64,000 bases of DNA, taken from contig NZ_CAKKMS010000003.1 of NCBI RefSeq assembly GCF_918698245.1, positions 186,001 to 250,000 on the forward strand, read 5' to 3'. This DNA is from Pedobacter sp. Bi126 (GTDB lineage: Bacteria > Bacteroidota > Bacteroidia > Sphingobacteriales > Sphingobacteriaceae). The notes below the pieces were generated by a model, which worked only from the letters and a program-made list of their open reading frames with translations, had not been told where the DNA came from and did not search any database. The position numbers were made by a program, and so were the translations under genes. Positions 43,479 through 49,600 of this stretch are shown in pieces; position 1 is the stretch's first letter, and every line of letters begins with the position of its first letter.

Positions 43479-44129
43479 ATGATCAAGATTATAGATCCTG
43501 TAACCTCAGTTGAACTTGTATGTTTAATAATTGCTATATTTTTTCTAAGCAAGGATAAACAAAGTTTTTGGACTATAACCTTGGCGTATCTTGCATTTGT
43601 ATGTTGTACAGAGTATTTCGGTCAGTATATTGGTGCTAAATACAAAAACAATCTTTGGGTATATAATGTATTTGTTTTTTTTGAGGCCGGTTTTATCTCT
43701 TATGGATTGTATAATTGTTTTAAAAAATACATTAACCCTAAACCCATTTTTTTAATTAGCAGCATTATTATCTACACCACATATTTTGCTGTTTTTATAA
43801 AAAATGGGGTTTTTGCTTTCAATTCGATTACTGTAAGTGTAATGTCGGTTATTTTTGTGCTGTACTGCCTTTACTATTATTACTTACTACTTAGGGACGA
43901 GCACCTTTTAGATATTACGTATCACCCAGAATTTTGGTGGCTAACCGCTGTTTTGTTCTTCTATTTTGGCAGTACCACCAGTAATTTGTTTTTTGGCTTA
44001 TTTAAATCTATCAAAATTGGTCCTTACCCACTAACATACGCTATCTACATACTATTAAACTGGACTTTATATAGCCTTTGGGCTTACTCTTTTATATGCA
44101 GAGCCAAACAACGCAAATTGCAATCTTAG
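43479..44129 (+). CDS. Hypothetical integral membrane protein
   Basis: A 216-residue polytopic membrane protein with six or seven hydrophobic helices and no soluble domain. I do not recognise a family. It lies in a tight run: 8 bp after the preceding Cys-cluster gene, and its 3' end overlaps the kinase gene by 34 bp (start 44096). The context suggests a sensory or accessory membrane component of the NarL-type system. Confidence 0.75.
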   Translation: MIKIIDPVTSVELVCLIIAIFFLSKDKQSFWTITLAYLAFVCCTEYFGQYIGAKYKNNLWVYNVFVFFEAGFISYGLYNCFKKYINPKPIFLISSIIIYTTYFAVFIKNGVFAFNSITVSVMSVIFVLYCLYYYYLLLRDEHLLDITYHPEFWWLTAVLFFYFGSTTSNLFFGLFKSIKIGPYPLTYAIYILLNWTLYSLWAYSFICRAKQRKLQS

Positions 44130-44887
44130 TAGGAATATCTACTTTGATTTTTTTATTGATGCCCGTGTTTTTGATATTCTATATTAAGATTAGTATAAAG
44201 TATAGAAAAAATCACATTCTCGAAAAGGCAGCTATGAAACAGAAATTTGAATCCGAAATGCTTCAAACCCGTGTGGAAGTACAGGATCAGACCATGCAGA
44301 GCATTGCCACAGAACTGCACGATAATGTTGGCCAATTGCTCAGTCTTACTACCTTAACCTTAAACTCCGTAAATTTAGATGATGGCGAAAAGGCTAAAAA
44401 GAAGATCGACAATTCCTTAGCGCTAGTGAACAAATCAATTAAAGAATTGAGAGAGTTGGCTAAGTTATTACATGGCGAACAATTGGTAGAAAATGGCATT
44501 GGGCATGCAATAGATCAAGAGATTAACTGGCTTAACAAAGCTGGAGCATATGAGTTAAAAGTTAGTAACCAATTAGTTGACCTGCAGATCACATCTCCCG
44601 ATAAAGATTTGATTATTCTTCGTTTATTACAGGAAATCATCAATAACATTATAAAACATGCTCGGGCAAAACATATACAGATCGATTCTTATCTCGAAAA
44701 GAATGCTTTACATCTAAAGGTTATTGAGAATGGTGTAGGTTTTAACCCCGAAGAAATTAAATCAAAAAAATCGGGAATGGGACTAAATTCTATTTATAAA
44801 AGAATTGAGATGATCAATGGAAAATTAATATTAAATTCGACTCCAGGCGAAGGCACTTCCATTTCCATAGAAGTTCCATACCCTTAA
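44096..44887 (+). CDS. NarL-type sensor histidine kinase
   Basis: A 263-residue kinase. One N-terminal membrane helix (about 8-30) is followed by HisKA_3 with the phospho-His in TELHDNVGQLLSL and the HATPase domain (LLQEIINNIIKHARAKH, then NGVGFNPEEIKSKKSGMGL). There is no separate sensor domain, so the overlapping upstream membrane protein may supply it. ATG 44096 keeps the overlap shorter than the frame start at 44078. It lies 4 bp upstream of the response regulator gene. Confidence 0.9.
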   Translation: MQSQTTQIAILVGISTLIFLLMPVFLIFYIKISIKYRKNHILEKAAMKQKFESEMLQTRVEVQDQTMQSIATELHDNVGQLLSLTTLTLNSVNLDDGEKAKKKIDNSLALVNKSIKELRELAKLLHGEQLVENGIGHAIDQEINWLNKAGAYELKVSNQLVDLQITSPDKDLIILRLLQEIINNIIKHARAKHIQIDSYLEKNALHLKVIENGVGFNPEEIKSKKSGMGLNSIYKRIEMINGKLILNSTPGEGTSISIEVPYP

Positions 44888-44891
44888 TTGT

Positions 44892-45533
44892 ATGCAAGAC
44901 CAAAGTATCTCTATCGCTATTGTTGATGACCACACGCTTTTCCGTTCCGGATTGGCCAGCCTATTGGAAGAATTTGACGAAATAAATGTCACGTTTGAGG
45001 CTGTAAACGGATTAGATCTACAGTCTAAAATAAACAGCCACAAACACGTCCAACTGGTGCTAATGGACATTAATATGCCGGTAATGGATGGTTTTGCAGC
45101 AACCAAATGGGTTAAAACCAATCATCCGAATGTACATGTGCTTGCATTAAGTATGCTCGAAGATGAAAAAGCAATTATCGGAATGCTTAAAGCCGGTGCC
45201 GGAGGCTATATGCTTAAAGAATCAACCCCATCCGATCTGCTAACAGCAATTAAAGTAATAGTAGATAAAGGTTTTTATGTAAACGAACTGGTATCGGGCA
45301 GACTTTTGGTGGCGCTAAAAGACAGCGATCAAAAACCAGTATTCTCTGCAAGAGAACTTACATTTTTACAATATTGCAGTACTGAACTTACTTATAAGGA
45401 AATTGCAGACCTCATGATTGTTAGTCCACGCACAGTAGATAACTACCGGGAATCTCTTTTTGCGAAGCTGAATATTAAATCGCGCACCGGATTAGTGGTA
45501 TATGGCATCAAAAACAACCTGATTACCATATAG
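44892..45533 (+). CDS. NarL/FixJ-type response regulator
   Basis: A 213-residue regulator: a receiver domain with the phospho-Asp in VLMDINMPVMDG (about residue 59), the switch Lys in GYMLKEST, and a LuxR-type HTH C-terminus (ELTYKEIADLMIVSPRTVDN). It is the obvious partner of the kinase 4 bp upstream. Targets are not evident. Confidence 0.95.
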   Translation: MQDQSISIAIVDDHTLFRSGLASLLEEFDEINVTFEAVNGLDLQSKINSHKHVQLVLMDINMPVMDGFAATKWVKTNHPNVHVLALSMLEDEKAIIGMLKAGAGGYMLKESTPSDLLTAIKVIVDKGFYVNELVSGRLLVALKDSDQKPVFSARELTFLQYCSTELTYKEIADLMIVSPRTVDNYRESLFAKLNIKSRTGLVVYGIKNNLITI

Positions 45534-45687
45534 TCTCCACACCTTATCGAAACAGATTTAAACACTGTTTTTCAGTCAAATAGCTACTTAAAGCTAATTA
45601 CTTTTCTCAAAGTAACCTCCTAAAAGGAAGCAAAAACTCATTTTTATTCATTTTTCTAATAATTTATTCAATAAAATTAGGATAACT

Positions 45688-45699
45688 AACTAATTAGTT
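45688..45699. promoter_or_regulatory. Candidate BlaI-type operator
   Basis: AACTAATTAGTT is a perfect 12-bp palindrome 56 bp before the BlaI-like start, and overlapping AACTAAC and TTTAGTT half-sites flank it. BlaI/MecI repressors bind dyads in this position and autoregulate their operons; the exact sequence differs from the TACA/TGTA core of the best-known members. Confidence 0.55.
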
Positions 45700-45754
45700 T
45701 TAACTTTAGTTAAGGCAAAGTAATTTGCTGTCATCCTTATTATTATTAACTATT

Positions 45755-46132
45755 ATGGAAATTAAAGATTTAACCAAAGCCGAAGAACAGATTATGCAGG
45801 TTTTATGGCAATTGGAAAAAGCATTCGTCAAAGAAGTTATTGATGAGCTACCCCTCCCTAAACCTGCATACAATACCGTATCAACCATTATAAGAATTTT
45901 AGAAACCAAAGGTTTTATTGGTCACGAAGCCTTCGGTAAGGCACACCAATATTATCCTCTAATCAGCAGAGAAGAATATAAACGCCATGCAACAGAAAAA
46001 CTGTTAGGCAATTACTTCGAAAATTCGGTAGAAAGTATGTTCTCTTTCTTCGTTAAAGAAGAAAAACTGGATTTAAGTGATGTTGATGAAATTTTAAAAA
46101 TGATTAACAAAATTAAACATAAGCCAAAATGA
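45755..46132 (+). CDS. BlaI/MecI/CopY-family repressor
   Basis: A 125-residue winged-helix repressor. It begins MEIKDLTKAEEQIMQVLWQL and has the recognition region PAYNTVSTIIRILETKGFIG, then the C-terminal dimerisation/cleavage helices. In this family the repressor is inactivated by proteolysis triggered by the cognate M56 sensor; here the M56 gene overlaps its stop by 4 bp, so the pair is coupled. The operon continues with TonB-related genes. Confidence 0.93.
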   Translation: MEIKDLTKAEEQIMQVLWQLEKAFVKEVIDELPLPKPAYNTVSTIIRILETKGFIGHEAFGKAHQYYPLISREEYKRHATEKLLGNYFENSVESMFSFFVKEEKLDLSDVDEILKMINKIKHKPK

Positions 46133-48114
46133 GTTTTGCCCACTACCTATTACAGGTGAACTTATACTTAATTGTTTTTTTCGGTTTTTACAAATTACTG
46201 TTAGATAAGGAGACCTATTTCACTTTAAACCGCATTTATTTAGTAGCTGCGGGCGTTTTGTCGCTATCTATACCATTTATCCGTTTAGAATGGCTAACGG
46301 AGCAAAGAGCGGCACAACAGGTTTATACTTCAGTTAATTGGGAAGCCGTATTAGCACAGGCAACGATTGTAACGGAGCGCAATACCGGTTTTAACTGGGG
46401 GAATGCATTCGTTTACATCTATTGCGCAGGTATTTTGTTCTTCTTAGGTAGATTGGTATTTAACCTATTAGCGGTTAAAAAACTCATCTCAATAAGCAAA
46501 GCGGGCTCGGCTTTCTCTTTTTTTGGCAAAAAAGTAATTGATCGGGAATTGCCACAAATGGATGTGATTGATATTCATGAAGAAGCACATATTAAACAAT
46601 GGCATACAGTAGATATTTTATTTTTCGAAATTATAGGAATTATAACCTGGCTAAATCCAGTGATTTATCTTTATAAAAAAGCAATTAAAAATATTCACGA
46701 GTTTTTAGCCGATGAACTTGCAGCCGAATTTCAGGGTGATAAAGCGGAATATGCCATGTTATTGCTCAGTAAGTCGTTCGGCATTTCGCCAAATGCCTTA
46801 ACAAATGGCTTTTTAGAAAAATCATTGATCAAAAAAAGAATTTTCATGCTTCATAAAGAGCGGTCGAAAAAGATCGCTATTATGAAGTATGGAATTTTTA
46901 TCCCCTTATTTGCCCTTCTGATTGTGTTTTCGTCGGCTACTGTCCGCAAAAATGAAAAGTTGTTATCCATTACCGATCAAATCCCTTTAGAGAAACCAAT
47001 TGAGATTGTAGAAAACATGGTTACAGCACCCGAGAAGATAACTGTAGCACCTAAAATTTCAGTTGATGGCAAAACAGATGCAAACTGGAAAGGATTTTAC
47101 CAGTTTCTATTAAGAAATATTAAATACCCAGGCGCAGCCAGCAGTGATGAGGTACAAGGTAATGCCCAGATAAAATTTAATCTAAAAAGCGGCAGGGTTA
47201 CCAATATTACATCGAATGTAGAACTGGGGGCAGGTTGCGATGAAGAAGTGATGAAAGCAATTTTATCTTATAAAGGATTTAAAACTGTAGCAGATGGCAA
47301 TTATGCTTTAACGGTAAGTTTTAAAATTCCAGAATCTTCAGAAGAGTTCAGGAATAAATTATTACCTGAATCGGATGGATATGTAAATCTGAACAAGATC
47401 AATATCATATCTTATCTTCCTAAAACCGCTGAAACAGAAACCAGTTCTATTAAATCTGAAAATACAGATAAAGTATATGATTTCGTTTCAATCGAGAAAC
47501 AACCGGAGTTTCCGGGCGGTATAAGCAAGTTTTATAGATATCTGGGTGGCAGCATCAGGTATCCGAAAATGGCGCTGGAGAATAATGTGCAAGGTAAAGT
47601 TTTTCTCAGTTTCGTGGTTGAAAAAGATGGTGCACTATCCGATATCCAAATTACAAGGGGTTTAGGAAGCGGCACAGATGAAGAGGCAATAAGGGTTTTA
47701 AAAGAATCGCCAAAATGGCACCCAGGCATCCAGAATGGCTTAGCCGTGAGGGTAAAATACAATATCAATGTGAATTTCACACTTAATGACCCCTCACAAG
47801 AAACTAAAGCAAATAGCATAGCAACAAACCGGATCGCCTTTAGGGATGGTATAAATCAAGAAGCGTTGATCATTTTAGATGGTGTGAAGTTGCCAAACAA
47901 TAGCCAGTTGAGTACTATAAATCCAAATAACATAGAATCGATTTCTGTTTTAAAAGATCAGGCAGCTGTTAATCTTTATGGGGAAAGAGCTAAAGCTGGT
48001 GTAATTCTAATTACAAGTAAAGGATCTAAAAACAATGCCTTCAAACAATTGGATGGAAAGGAACTTACTACCGACAAAACTTCTAATTTTTTCAACCTTA
48101 AAAGAAAATTCTAA
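46129..48114 (+). CDS. M56 (BlaR1-like) metallopeptidase with TonB C-terminal and plug-like segments
   Basis: A 661-residue membrane peptidase. Helices at about 5-25, 35-55 and 85-115 precede the zinc motif HEEAH (about residue 151, in DIHEEAHIKQWHTV), with the downstream Glu in HEFLADELAAE; a fourth helix is at about 250-270. The exported C-terminus holds a TonB-C-like domain (about 311-400; NWKGFYQFLLRNIKYPGA), a second TonB-C domain (about 444-560; PEFPGGISKFYRYL), and finally a SusC-plug-like segment (about 578-637; NPNNIESISVLKDQAAVNLY). It lacks a penicillin-binding sensor domain, so its signal is not a beta-lactam by sequence. Confidence 0.87.
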   Translation: MSFAHYLLQVNLYLIVFFGFYKLLLDKETYFTLNRIYLVAAGVLSLSIPFIRLEWLTEQRAAQQVYTSVNWEAVLAQATIVTERNTGFNWGNAFVYIYCAGILFFLGRLVFNLLAVKKLISISKAGSAFSFFGKKVIDRELPQMDVIDIHEEAHIKQWHTVDILFFEIIGIITWLNPVIYLYKKAIKNIHEFLADELAAEFQGDKAEYAMLLLSKSFGISPNALTNGFLEKSLIKKRIFMLHKERSKKIAIMKYGIFIPLFALLIVFSSATVRKNEKLLSITDQIPLEKPIEIVENMVTAPEKITVAPKISVDGKTDANWKGFYQFLLRNIKYPGAASSDEVQGNAQIKFNLKSGRVTNITSNVELGAGCDEEVMKAILSYKGFKTVADGNYALTVSFKIPESSEEFRNKLLPESDGYVNLNKINIISYLPKTAETETSSIKSENTDKVYDFVSIEKQPEFPGGISKFYRYLGGSIRYPKMALENNVQGKVFLSFVVEKDGALSDIQITRGLGSGTDEEAIRVLKESPKWHPGIQNGLAVRVKYNINVNFTLNDPSQETKANSIATNRIAFRDGINQEALIILDGVKLPNNSQLSTINPNNIESISVLKDQAAVNLYGERAKAGVILITSKGSKNNAFKQLDGKELTTDKTSNFFNLKRKF

Positions 48115-48119
48115 CCAAA

Positions 48120-48755
48120 ATGAAAAATATAATCGCCTTTACCCTAATGATGGGTTTTAGTTTAGTTGGTTTTGCTCAAAAAGCAGATAGCACAAAAACA
48201 ACCAAAATTACACTTAGAGGTGTACCTGCCCCTGGCATTGAACCCTTGATTGTAATAGATGGCAATAAACAGTATATAAGGGGCACATCATCACTTAGCG
48301 AGGTTGATCCCAATAATATTGAGTCTGTAAGCATCTTAAAAGATAGTTTAGCAACAGCTACGTATGGAGCTGACGGTTTTGCTGGGGTAATAGAAGTTAA
48401 AACCAAAAATGGCTCTTTAAGCAATTCTAAATTTAAAACCGCTCCGATAAAAATTGACGACCCTAATTTAAAAGGGAAAGTATCAGGATTTAGCACTCGA
48501 CCAAATGTACCTAACCCCAATACGTCTATAACCTTAAGAAATCTATTGAATAGCGATTTCGACCCGAAGGCAGAACCGCTTTATGTTGTGGATGGGAAAG
48601 AAGTTTCGGAAATAAAAAACATGGATCCGAAATCTATTGAATCAGTAGAAGTGCTAAAGGATTCGTCTGGTATAACTTTACATGGTGATAAGGGCAAAAA
48701 TGGAGTGGTGATTATCACCACCAAAAAATCAAAAGCAACGCCCAAGAAAAACTAA
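48120..48755 (+). CDS. Exported protein made of two TonB-receptor plug-like segments
   Basis: A 211-residue exported protein with a signal peptide ending FAQ (about residue 19). It then contains two copies of the SusC/RagA plug signature: PNNIESVSILKDSLATATYG (about 60-95) and PKSIESVEVLKDSSGITLHG (about 165-200), each ending in a V-I-x-T-K strand. No beta-barrel follows, so it cannot be a receptor; it is a soluble or periplasmic plug-only protein. It sits 5 bp after the M56 gene, which carries a related plug segment. Confidence 0.75.
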   Translation: MKNIIAFTLMMGFSLVGFAQKADSTKTTKITLRGVPAPGIEPLIVIDGNKQYIRGTSSLSEVDPNNIESVSILKDSLATATYGADGFAGVIEVKTKNGSLSNSKFKTAPIKIDDPNLKGKVSGFSTRPNVPNPNTSITLRNLLNSDFDPKAEPLYVVDGKEVSEIKNMDPKSIESVEVLKDSSGITLHGDKGKNGVVIITTKKSKATPKKN

Positions 48756-48780
48756 ATAATCAGCATTTAATAAAAAAACA

Positions 48781-49179
48781 ATGAGAAAGCTAATCTTTTT
48801 AGCCCTAACGGGCATCGCTATGTGCTTAAATCAGGCAAAAGCACAAGACAATTCAAACAAAGTTTATGATTTTGTGTCTGTTGAAAAACAGCCGGCGTTT
48901 CCGGGCGGCATTTCAAATTTCTATAGATACTTAAGCCATGAAATTAAATACCCTGAAGCTGCAAAGCGGAATAATACAAAGGGCAAGGTCTTCGCCTCTT
49001 TTATAGTCGAAAAAAATGGCACCTTAGCCGATATTCAGATCATCAGAAGCCTTTCACCAGAAACGGATAAAGAAGCAGTACGGGTACTGAACAAGTCGCC
49101 CCGGTGGAACCCGGCCTTGCAAAACGGAATACCCGTAAGGGTAAAATACAACATGGCTATTAATTTCGCCTTGAAGTAA
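48781..49179 (+). CDS. TonB-like C-terminal domain protein
   Basis: A 132-residue protein with a signal peptide (ending AKAQ, residues 1-21) and one TonB C-terminal domain (QPAFPGGISNFYRYLSHEIK, then NGTLADIQIIRSLSPETDKE). It lacks the N-terminal membrane anchor and the Pro-rich linker of a standard TonB. Its start after the signal peptide (NKVYDFVSVEKQP) is nearly identical to residues 444-456 of the M56 protein, showing recent duplication within the operon. A partner role with TonB/ExbB-driven receptors is inference. Confidence 0.85.
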   Translation: MRKLIFLALTGIAMCLNQAKAQDNSNKVYDFVSVEKQPAFPGGISNFYRYLSHEIKYPEAAKRNNTKGKVFASFIVEKNGTLADIQIIRSLSPETDKEAVRVLNKSPRWNPALQNGIPVRVKYNMAINFALK

Positions 49180-49209
49180 AACCAGTTTATATTAATGCTC
49201 TCCAAGCAC

Positions 49210-49239
49210 AAAACCCCAGCAAAAATTGCCGGGGTTTTA
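49210..49239 (+). terminator. Terminator after the BlaI-M56-TonB operon
   Basis: AAAACCCC (49210-49217) pairs with GGGGTTTT (49231-49238), enclosing a short GC / GC inner pair. It marks the end of the operon. Confidence 0.85.
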
Positions 49240-49600
49240 TGTTTTCTCTCCTGTCTCGGAAGACTAAATTTAGAAAAATTTTAATGTATATGCAAATATT
49301 ACAGAATAAAATTTCTAAATACGCAAAATTTTAATATGCAAACATAAGATTATTACGACTTTCGCAAACTTTTATTTCGAGACCGCTTTGTTGTGCAAGG
49401 TTTCGGTTTTAAATTATAAAGTTTCATATGTTTTCATAACAGCGGGAAAATGTTAAATATGTATCTGTTTTAGTCGTTAGTATGCTAACAAATCATTAAA
49501 ATTTATTCATTATTTATTCTTGGTCTATTAACCAGTATTAGCCTGATAATGTGTCTTAAACAGCTATTTTATCTATTTTATGATTAGTTTGTAGTTCCCT
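49240..49600. other. Gene-free AT-rich spacer
   Basis: About 360 bp of very AT-rich DNA between the two convergent operon ends; no ORF, repeat or promoter-like element was recognised on either strand. Confidence 0.5.

Follow-up and report, generated by a model that had tools for sequence, protein, structure and literature searches.

What might a BlaR1-type protease read when its sensor is built from parts of the TonB transport machinery? This question is raised by an operon of the soil bacterium Pedobacter sp. Bi126, located in a stretch of 64,000 nucleotides (nt) of contig NZ_CAKKMS010000003.1 (positions 186,001 to 250,000; hereafter ‘the window’). Its four genes, all on the plus strand, encode a BlaI repressor, an M56 protease ending in two TonB_C domains and a Plug segment, an exported Plug-Plug protein, and an exported TonB_C protein (Pfam and NCBIfam). 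Here, we describe by computation the anatomy of this operon, the kinship of one of its TonB_C domains to TonB, a conserved dyad upstream of it, and a conserved candidate regulon. We propose, with about as much confidence as doubt, that the operon encodes a BlaR1-type one-step proteolytic switch with a TonB-mimic sensor that controls an envelope regulon.

The first two genes follow the known two-gene BlaI/M56 plan. They overlap by 4 nt (ATGA), the later intergenic gaps are short, and the repressor has 125 amino acids (aa) from its ATG or 135 aa from an upstream TTG. The protease part of the M56 protein (model residues 3–233) matches Staphylococcus aureus BlaR1 (8exs; Z 14.7, 193 residues, root-mean-square deviation [rmsd] 3.2), and this fold, the HExxH motif, and the adjacent BlaI-family repressor in a two-gene unit are features shared with staphylococcal BlaR1/BlaI and MecR1/MecI. 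Unlike BlaR1 and MecR1, the Pedobacter protein has no penicillin-binding sensor domain that Pfam could find; its ectodomain consists of two TonB_C domains (T1 and T2), a TonB-box-like segment between them, and a Plug piece, and its operon adds exported satellites made of the same TonB_C and Plug parts.

T2 is nearly TonB. It shares 81% identity with the C-terminal end of the genome's housekeeping TonB, a 272-aa protein with an anchor and a proline-rich arm, the gene of which adjoins two ExbD-like genes and an ExbB-like gene (neighbour names read from sequence). Its AlphaFold model is folded as receptor-bound TonB is (FoxA-bound TonB, 6i97_D; Z 10.8, 89 residues, rmsd 1.9), and Pfam and structure comparison agree on a TonB C-terminal fold in the TonB_C parts. 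In a tree of 90 TonB_C domains, one supported group without a resolved internal order unites T2 with TonB and 20 of the 21 other TonB_C rows; T1 stands apart, and the exception among the rows is the T1 of a split sensor. Unlike TonB, the TonB_C domains of the operon are fused to a protease or exported alone, have no ExbBD cluster, and, compared in sequence with true TonB, have neither an N-terminal anchor nor a proline-rich arm in the TonB_C protein or the M56 tail.

The plug segments, in turn, are like those of SusC/RagA receptors, matching TIGR04056/TIGR04057 and SusC structures (best E 1.3e-3). Unlike those receptors, the operon's plug proteins have no barrel and carry a partial plug in one or two copies, the best stretches spanning profile positions 36–107 or 45–107 of 107; in the 211-aa Plug-Plug protein, Pfam and NCBIfam found only plug stretches and no outer-membrane beta-barrel. 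The AlphaFold model of the M56 protein is confident for T1 and T2 and fair for the plug (predicted local distance difference test [pLDDT] 70.8, predicted template modelling score [pTM] 0.37), and that of the Plug-Plug protein contains two plug folds of uncertain placing (pLDDT 67.0, pTM 0.31) that are nearest to SusC structures. The initial annotation of this DNA had described a BlaI-like repressor overlapping an M56 peptidase with an intact HEEAH motif, two TonB_C-like domains and a SusC-plug-like segment at the end of that peptidase, an exported protein of two plug segments without a barrel, and a TonB_C protein with a signal peptide and no membrane anchor. All of this is confirmed, and its view of the peptidase as BlaR1-like with the penicillin-binding domain missing is supported by the fold match and by Pfam.

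The arrangement recurs in tens of genomes, which places it beyond chance. A first survey of 59 genomes (its own, 35 of the same genus, and 23 of other families, with none from other genera of the same family) returned some match in every genome and E values below 1e-80 only in the 36 of the genus. Among the best 80 of 230 loci from a scan of named genomes (78 from Pedobacter, one from Nubsella, and one from a Sphingobacteriaceae bin), BlaI adjoins M56 in 79, and in the remaining locus the contig begins inside M56. With T standing for a TonB_C domain and P for a plug piece, the M56 tails are T-T-P in 72 loci, T-T-T in four, T-T-P-T in two, and split sensors in two; 76 of the 80 retain the plug tail, either as part of the M56 protein or on the piece split off from it.

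Across these loci, the M56-BlaI parts of the operon are constant and the satellite order is variable. Leaving aside the split-off ends of two broken sensors, 110 small satellite genes occur in 54 loci and display TonB_C and Plug in nine orders (P-P 39, T 38, T-T 18, P-T 7, T-P 3, T-T-T 2, and T-P-T, T-P-P, and P one each), as judged from our own TonB_C and Plug profiles, the Pfam scan having covered the window's satellites only. One of the 39 P-P satellites (L226) has a shortened second plug. By a crude rule, 106 of 112 non-M56 TonB_C/Plug open reading frames (ORFs) have signal-peptide-like starts, and two of the six misses are the split-off sensor ends. The window's two satellite genes look maintained, since ratios of nonsynonymous to synonymous substitution rates (dN/dS) are low in five comparisons (0.13–0.22 for the Plug-Plug gene; 0.07–0.14 for the TonB_C gene, the dS of which is high, 0.83–1.59). 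Given two plugs, this ratio, and presence in 39 of the 80 loci, we reject a decayed receptor as the origin of the Plug-Plug gene, a possibility that the initial annotation had raised. Its notion of a fixed four-gene system fails, because the plug-only gene is optional (39/80), and the four-gene order, the conservation of which across genera it had named as support, was seen inside Pedobacter only, the loci read outside numbering 27 with 1.5-kb flanks. An anti-phage system was also considered and rejected (no PADLOC match for the four proteins).

Several loci depart from the common plan. The sensor gene is interrupted, with neighbours that look intact, in P. mendelii (L063:2602-4604 and L236) and P. 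nanyangensis (L072:2686-4653 and L262), the break falling inside T2 or just past the M56 part and reflecting either a natural split sensor or a sequencing error. One satellite TonB_C protein (L077:4802-5278), in which a cysteine follows the signal stretch, looks like a lipoprotein and not like a soluble protein, and L364 (G136) holds two tandem BlaI-M56 pairs, with a plug tail on at least one.

In a class survey of 295 genomes, matches reached E 1e-25 or better in 67, and the best 30 loci (three of the genus and 27 outside) were read with 1.5-kb flanks each. The M56 tail holds T in 21 of the 27 outside loci and P in 10; a single T without P is found in 14. In two of the 27, both from other families, a single M56 protein contains TonB_C and Plug together with a CarboxypepD_reg domain that is followed by a canonical TonB box: L351 (70-2385) has the box LNEIVVVAYG followed by T-T-P-P in one chain, and L365 (1-2340) has LDEVVVVGYG followed by T-P-P-T, with Plug just below the Pfam cut-off. 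The linker between T1 and T2 contains a conserved LNxIxIxxY segment, in which a strand is predicted at residues 424–427. Under a TonB-box matrix derived from 15 gapless SusC-type boxes (out of 20 receptor stretches of the genus Pedobacter), the ectodomain's best-scoring site starts in this linker (residues 409–443) in 33 of 50 proteins and exceeds that of 95% of shuffled ectodomains in 16.

The operon is preceded by an operator-like dyad, AACTAACTAATTAGTT. Its exact form, AACTAA-N4-TTAGTT, is found upstream of blaI, no further than 111 nt from where the ORF starts, in 77 of the 79 loci with blaI on the contig (it is missing in L213 and L255). Within 150 bp of the 26 blaI genes outside the genus, the exact dyad occurs in 15 cases and the exact or relaxed (ACTA-N6-TAGT) dyad in 21, against chance expectations per locus of 0.0001 and 0.007, respectively. 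The relaxed dyad resembles the staphylococcal MecI/BlaI operator, and such a dyad before the operon is a further similarity to BlaR1/BlaI and MecR1/MecI. The element that follows, TAACTTTA, may be a -7 element, for which the Bacteroidota consensus is TAnnTTTG. No AACTAA dyad was found upstream of this genome's four other blaI genes. In L006, L007, and L009, the sequence upstream of blaI is different and contains, by eye, TACGAA/TTCGTA-like elements. The genome's blaI paralogues may use separate operators, because their upstream sequences differ and hold no AACTAA dyad. One further M56 protein of the same genome (L006:5113-7212), which has its own BlaI, carries SPEAQAKWKK-type repeats in place of TonB_C and Plug.

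The exact dyad occurs six times in the genome, once at the operon itself. The other five copies precede the genes for three exported proteins, one with CarboxypepD_reg (12 bp between dyad and ATG), one with TPR (14 bp), and one of 224 aa without a Pfam match (29 bp), and those for a CarboxypepD/OMP_b-brl_3 outer-membrane protein (31 bp) and a DUF4397 lipoprotein (64 bp); the last, which follows dnaN (three genomes), is a doubtful target, as its dyad may belong to a terminator. Among the sites listed from 14 genomes of the genus, we judged 53 outside the operon, many of them orthologous and hence not independent: 39 lie no more than 40 bp ahead of an ATG that opens an ORF of at least 100 aa, 38 of these ORFs having a signal-peptide-like start. 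Of 21 control sites matching the reversed pattern (one locus per genome; 15 genomes of the genus and six of other families), three are near an ORF start and one is signal-peptide-like. A null set drawn from loci partly chosen for carrying the site was discarded.

Because the target genes had been found through the site, their orthologues were sought by protein similarity, in 22 genomes of the genus per target. Seventeen TPR orthologues (not counting a fragment in G012 and weak matches) comprise 15 with the exact site, one with one mismatch, and one without the site. For the outer-membrane protein (21 orthologues, at least 54% identity), the site is exact in 11, has one mismatch in five and two in three, and is absent in two. 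For the CarboxypepD_reg protein (21 orthologues for which upstream sequence was available, after omission of one located at a contig end), it is exact in 10, with one mismatch in two, two in one, and three or more in eight. Four genomes of the sister genus g26 hold 11 sites elsewhere than at the blaI operon, seven of which have an ORF start no more than 40 bp away. In all four, the TPR orthologue (38–42% identity) has a site 2 bp from its start, and, in one of the four, the outer-membrane orthologue (58%) has one at 26 bp and a CarboxypepD_reg relative (29%) one at 11 bp. The outer-membrane target also lies ~9–12 kb from the blaI-M56 locus in five of 21 genomes (G002:C33, G012:C12, G015:C7, G016:C2, and G021:C19), a further hint of a link, perhaps resulting from one inherited event. 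BlaR1 and MecR1 in the strict sense control a beta-lactamase or a penicillin-binding protein; among ten scanned site-adjacent proteins, none matched either of these or a cell-wall family, and three matched no family. The idea of a switch wired to TonB-type parts, already present in the initial annotation, fits an ectodomain of TonB and receptor parts together with a BlaI-type operator upstream of the CarboxypepD/OMP_b-brl_3 gene.

TonB boxes and plugs are known partners of TonB, the box being the main contact. T2 is nearly TonB, boxes and plugs have repeatedly joined the protein that carries it, and an outer-membrane protein of TonB-receptor type is among the candidate targets; for these reasons, we infer that the sensor reads such elements. 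In the proposed mechanism, a BlaI dimer bound to AACTAA-N4-TTAGTT would repress its own operon and the envelope regulon (the exported TPR and CarboxypepD_reg proteins and the CarboxypepD/OMP_b-brl_3 outer-membrane protein). The M56 protein would span the inner membrane, with its two TonB_C domains, the TonB-box-like strand between them, and the receptor plug piece in the periplasm. The ligands of these TonB_C domains would be the TonB boxes or plugs of outer-membrane receptors, whether exposed, unassembled, or unengaged by TonB; they would compete with the sensor's own box and plug, and a change in binding would activate the zinc protease, which, by kinship with BlaR1/BlaI, is predicted to cut BlaI and thereby derepress the regulon. 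The soluble satellites, encoded in the same operon, would diffuse and compete for binding, so that the signal is tuned or reset. Since the simplest relatives have one T only, the ancestral sensor probably worked in trans, and the box and plug in cis would be a later brake.

Several observations weigh against this proposal. As a TonB box, the linker segment is degenerate: the window's sensor does not score above shuffled sequence, and 34 of the 50 proteins fall under the 95% line. The mutual placing of domains in the M56 model is not confident, as its pTM indicates. With a lone TonB_C, and neither box nor plug recognised, in 14 of the 27 outside-genus loci, competition in cis is not general, and with 26 of the 80 loci free of satellites, these are dispensable. 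As for the regulon, 14 of the 53 exact non-operon sites are not beside an ORF start, the CarboxypepD_reg target is without a recognisable site in several genomes, two of 23 genomes of the genus have no exact site anywhere, and the excess of exact sites irrespective of position is modest (88 vs 64 reversed-pattern sites in the 23 genomes). In the six genomes of other families with the exact site, no target besides blaI itself was found: among nine sites away from blaI, those in G206 and G311 are in long ORFs or have no ORF start within 150 bp, and G277 has none within 40 bp. We therefore claim no wider regulon beyond the family. Finally, the TonB C-terminal domain may have other ligands, e.g. 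peptidoglycan.

That last point leads to an alternative in which the BlaI/M56 switch and its regulon are the same but the TonB_C domains sense damage to the cell wall or to peptidoglycan, or else some small ligand, the plugs being structural. The outside-genus loci with a single TonB_C and nothing else recognised speak for it, as does the response of BlaR1 to cell-wall antibiotics (PMC7593790). We consider it unlikely, though worth keeping in view, as the M56 protein has no penicillin-binding domain, the ten scanned site-adjacent proteins (three without a family match) include no beta-lactamase or cell-wall family, and plug and TonB-box elements, which are parts of receptor biology, are repeatedly joined to TonB_C.

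The great variation in satellite order and number, down to none in some loci, might equally be expected if satellites and plug tail were selfish or neutral duplications from TonB and SusC genes without a signalling role, and only BlaI-M56-TonB_C were at work. The low dN/dS of both satellites, the prevalence of signal-peptide-like starts, and the retention of the plug tail make such an origin distinctly improbable. More doubtful still is that the dyad is read by another regulator, the apparent regulon not being that of BlaI. The dyad is indeed short and AT-rich, and BlaI binding is predicted from its sequence; yet it nearly always precedes this blaI and none of the genome's four others, and it resembles the MecI/BlaI operator. 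We retain the TonB-mimic switch as the working proposal; the coordinates of its parts are given in Table 1.

Table 1. Features of the BlaI/M56/TonB_C/Plug operon and its surroundings (positions within the window)
Feature	Position	Strand	Remark
Operator-like dyad	45684..45699	+	Exact AACTAAN4TTAGTT; start precedes the left edge of the initial annotation (45688)
Possible -7 element	45701..45708	+	Predicted from sequence
BlaI/Penicillinase_R repressor	45755..46132	+	ATG 45755, stop ends 46132; Penicillinase_R E=1.6e-33
M56 protease-sensor, 661 aa	46129..48114	+	TonB_C x2 E=2.2e-22, Peptidase_M56 E=6.2e-9, Plug E=1.4e-8
M56 membrane/protease part, residues 1–285	46129..46983	+	BlaR1 structure match
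HEEAH zinc motif, residues 150–154	46576..46590	+	H150, E151, H154 invariant among 24 sequences
TonB_C domain T1, residues 313–401	47065..47331	+	Pfam match, model
TonB-box-like segment LNKINIISYL, residues 421–430	47389..47418	+	Predicted strand 424–427; degenerate, own score not significant
TonB_C domain T2, residues 453–550	47485..47778	+	Close to C-terminus of housekeeping TonB
SusC-type plug segment of M56 protein, residues 563–631	47815..48021	+	Pfam match
Exported Plug-Plug protein, 211 aa	48120..48755	+	Plug E=1.8e-17; SusC model TIGR04056 matched in two stretches
Exported single TonB_C protein, 132 aa	48781..49179	+	TonB_C E=3.1e-19
Terminator-like hairpin after operon	49205..49245	+	-17.7 kcal/mol, z -4.17 (folded stretch); absent from the list of the consensus scan

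Just upstream of the operon (44078–45533) lies a pair of genes for a histidine kinase (HisKA_3) and a LuxR-type response regulator.

Simple M56-TonB_C proteins are recorded in databases. M56-TonB fusions might be mentioned in work on the several TonB homologues of B. thetaiotaomicron or in an earlier survey of this protein family. In the literature searched, which was thin in subscription journals, we found no paper on this system, nor on its plug pieces, its reshuffled satellites, its operator, or the envelope regulon. The accessible text of PMC12204202 contains no occurrence of M56 or BlaR1, and the accessible parts of PMC12578637 and PMC7254926 are not relevant to an M56-TonB_C switch. In cell-surface signalling and in the DegS pathway, the periplasmic part of an inner-membrane protein reads parts of outer-membrane proteins, and proteolysis frees transcription (PMC7593790). 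The proposed switch would work likewise, from outer-membrane reading through proteolysis to transcription; unlike these two, it uses BlaI and M56, and none of the seven proteins scanned (four of the operon and three encoded upstream) matched FecR, STN, or a sigma factor above the Pfam cut-off.

Bacteroidota have many TonB-dependent receptors, and we found no description, in the literature searched, of how their assembly or energised state is sensed. Only tentatively do we suggest that the operon represents an undescribed outer-membrane surveillance system of Bacteroidota, in which an inner-membrane, TonB-mimic protease reads free TonB boxes or plugs of transporters and cuts BlaI, switching on a small envelope regulon, while soluble mimics of TonB and plug compete as diffusible factors. 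With a candidate operator, named targets, and a sensor composed of TonB domains, receptor-state sensing becomes a testable question, and the locus indicates that BlaR1-type proteases borrow sensor domains from the transport machinery of their own cell. If true, the proposal would reveal an unrecognised watch over the outer membrane: an equivalent, in Bacteroidota, of signalling through DegS/sigma-E or FecR, assembled from unrelated parts.

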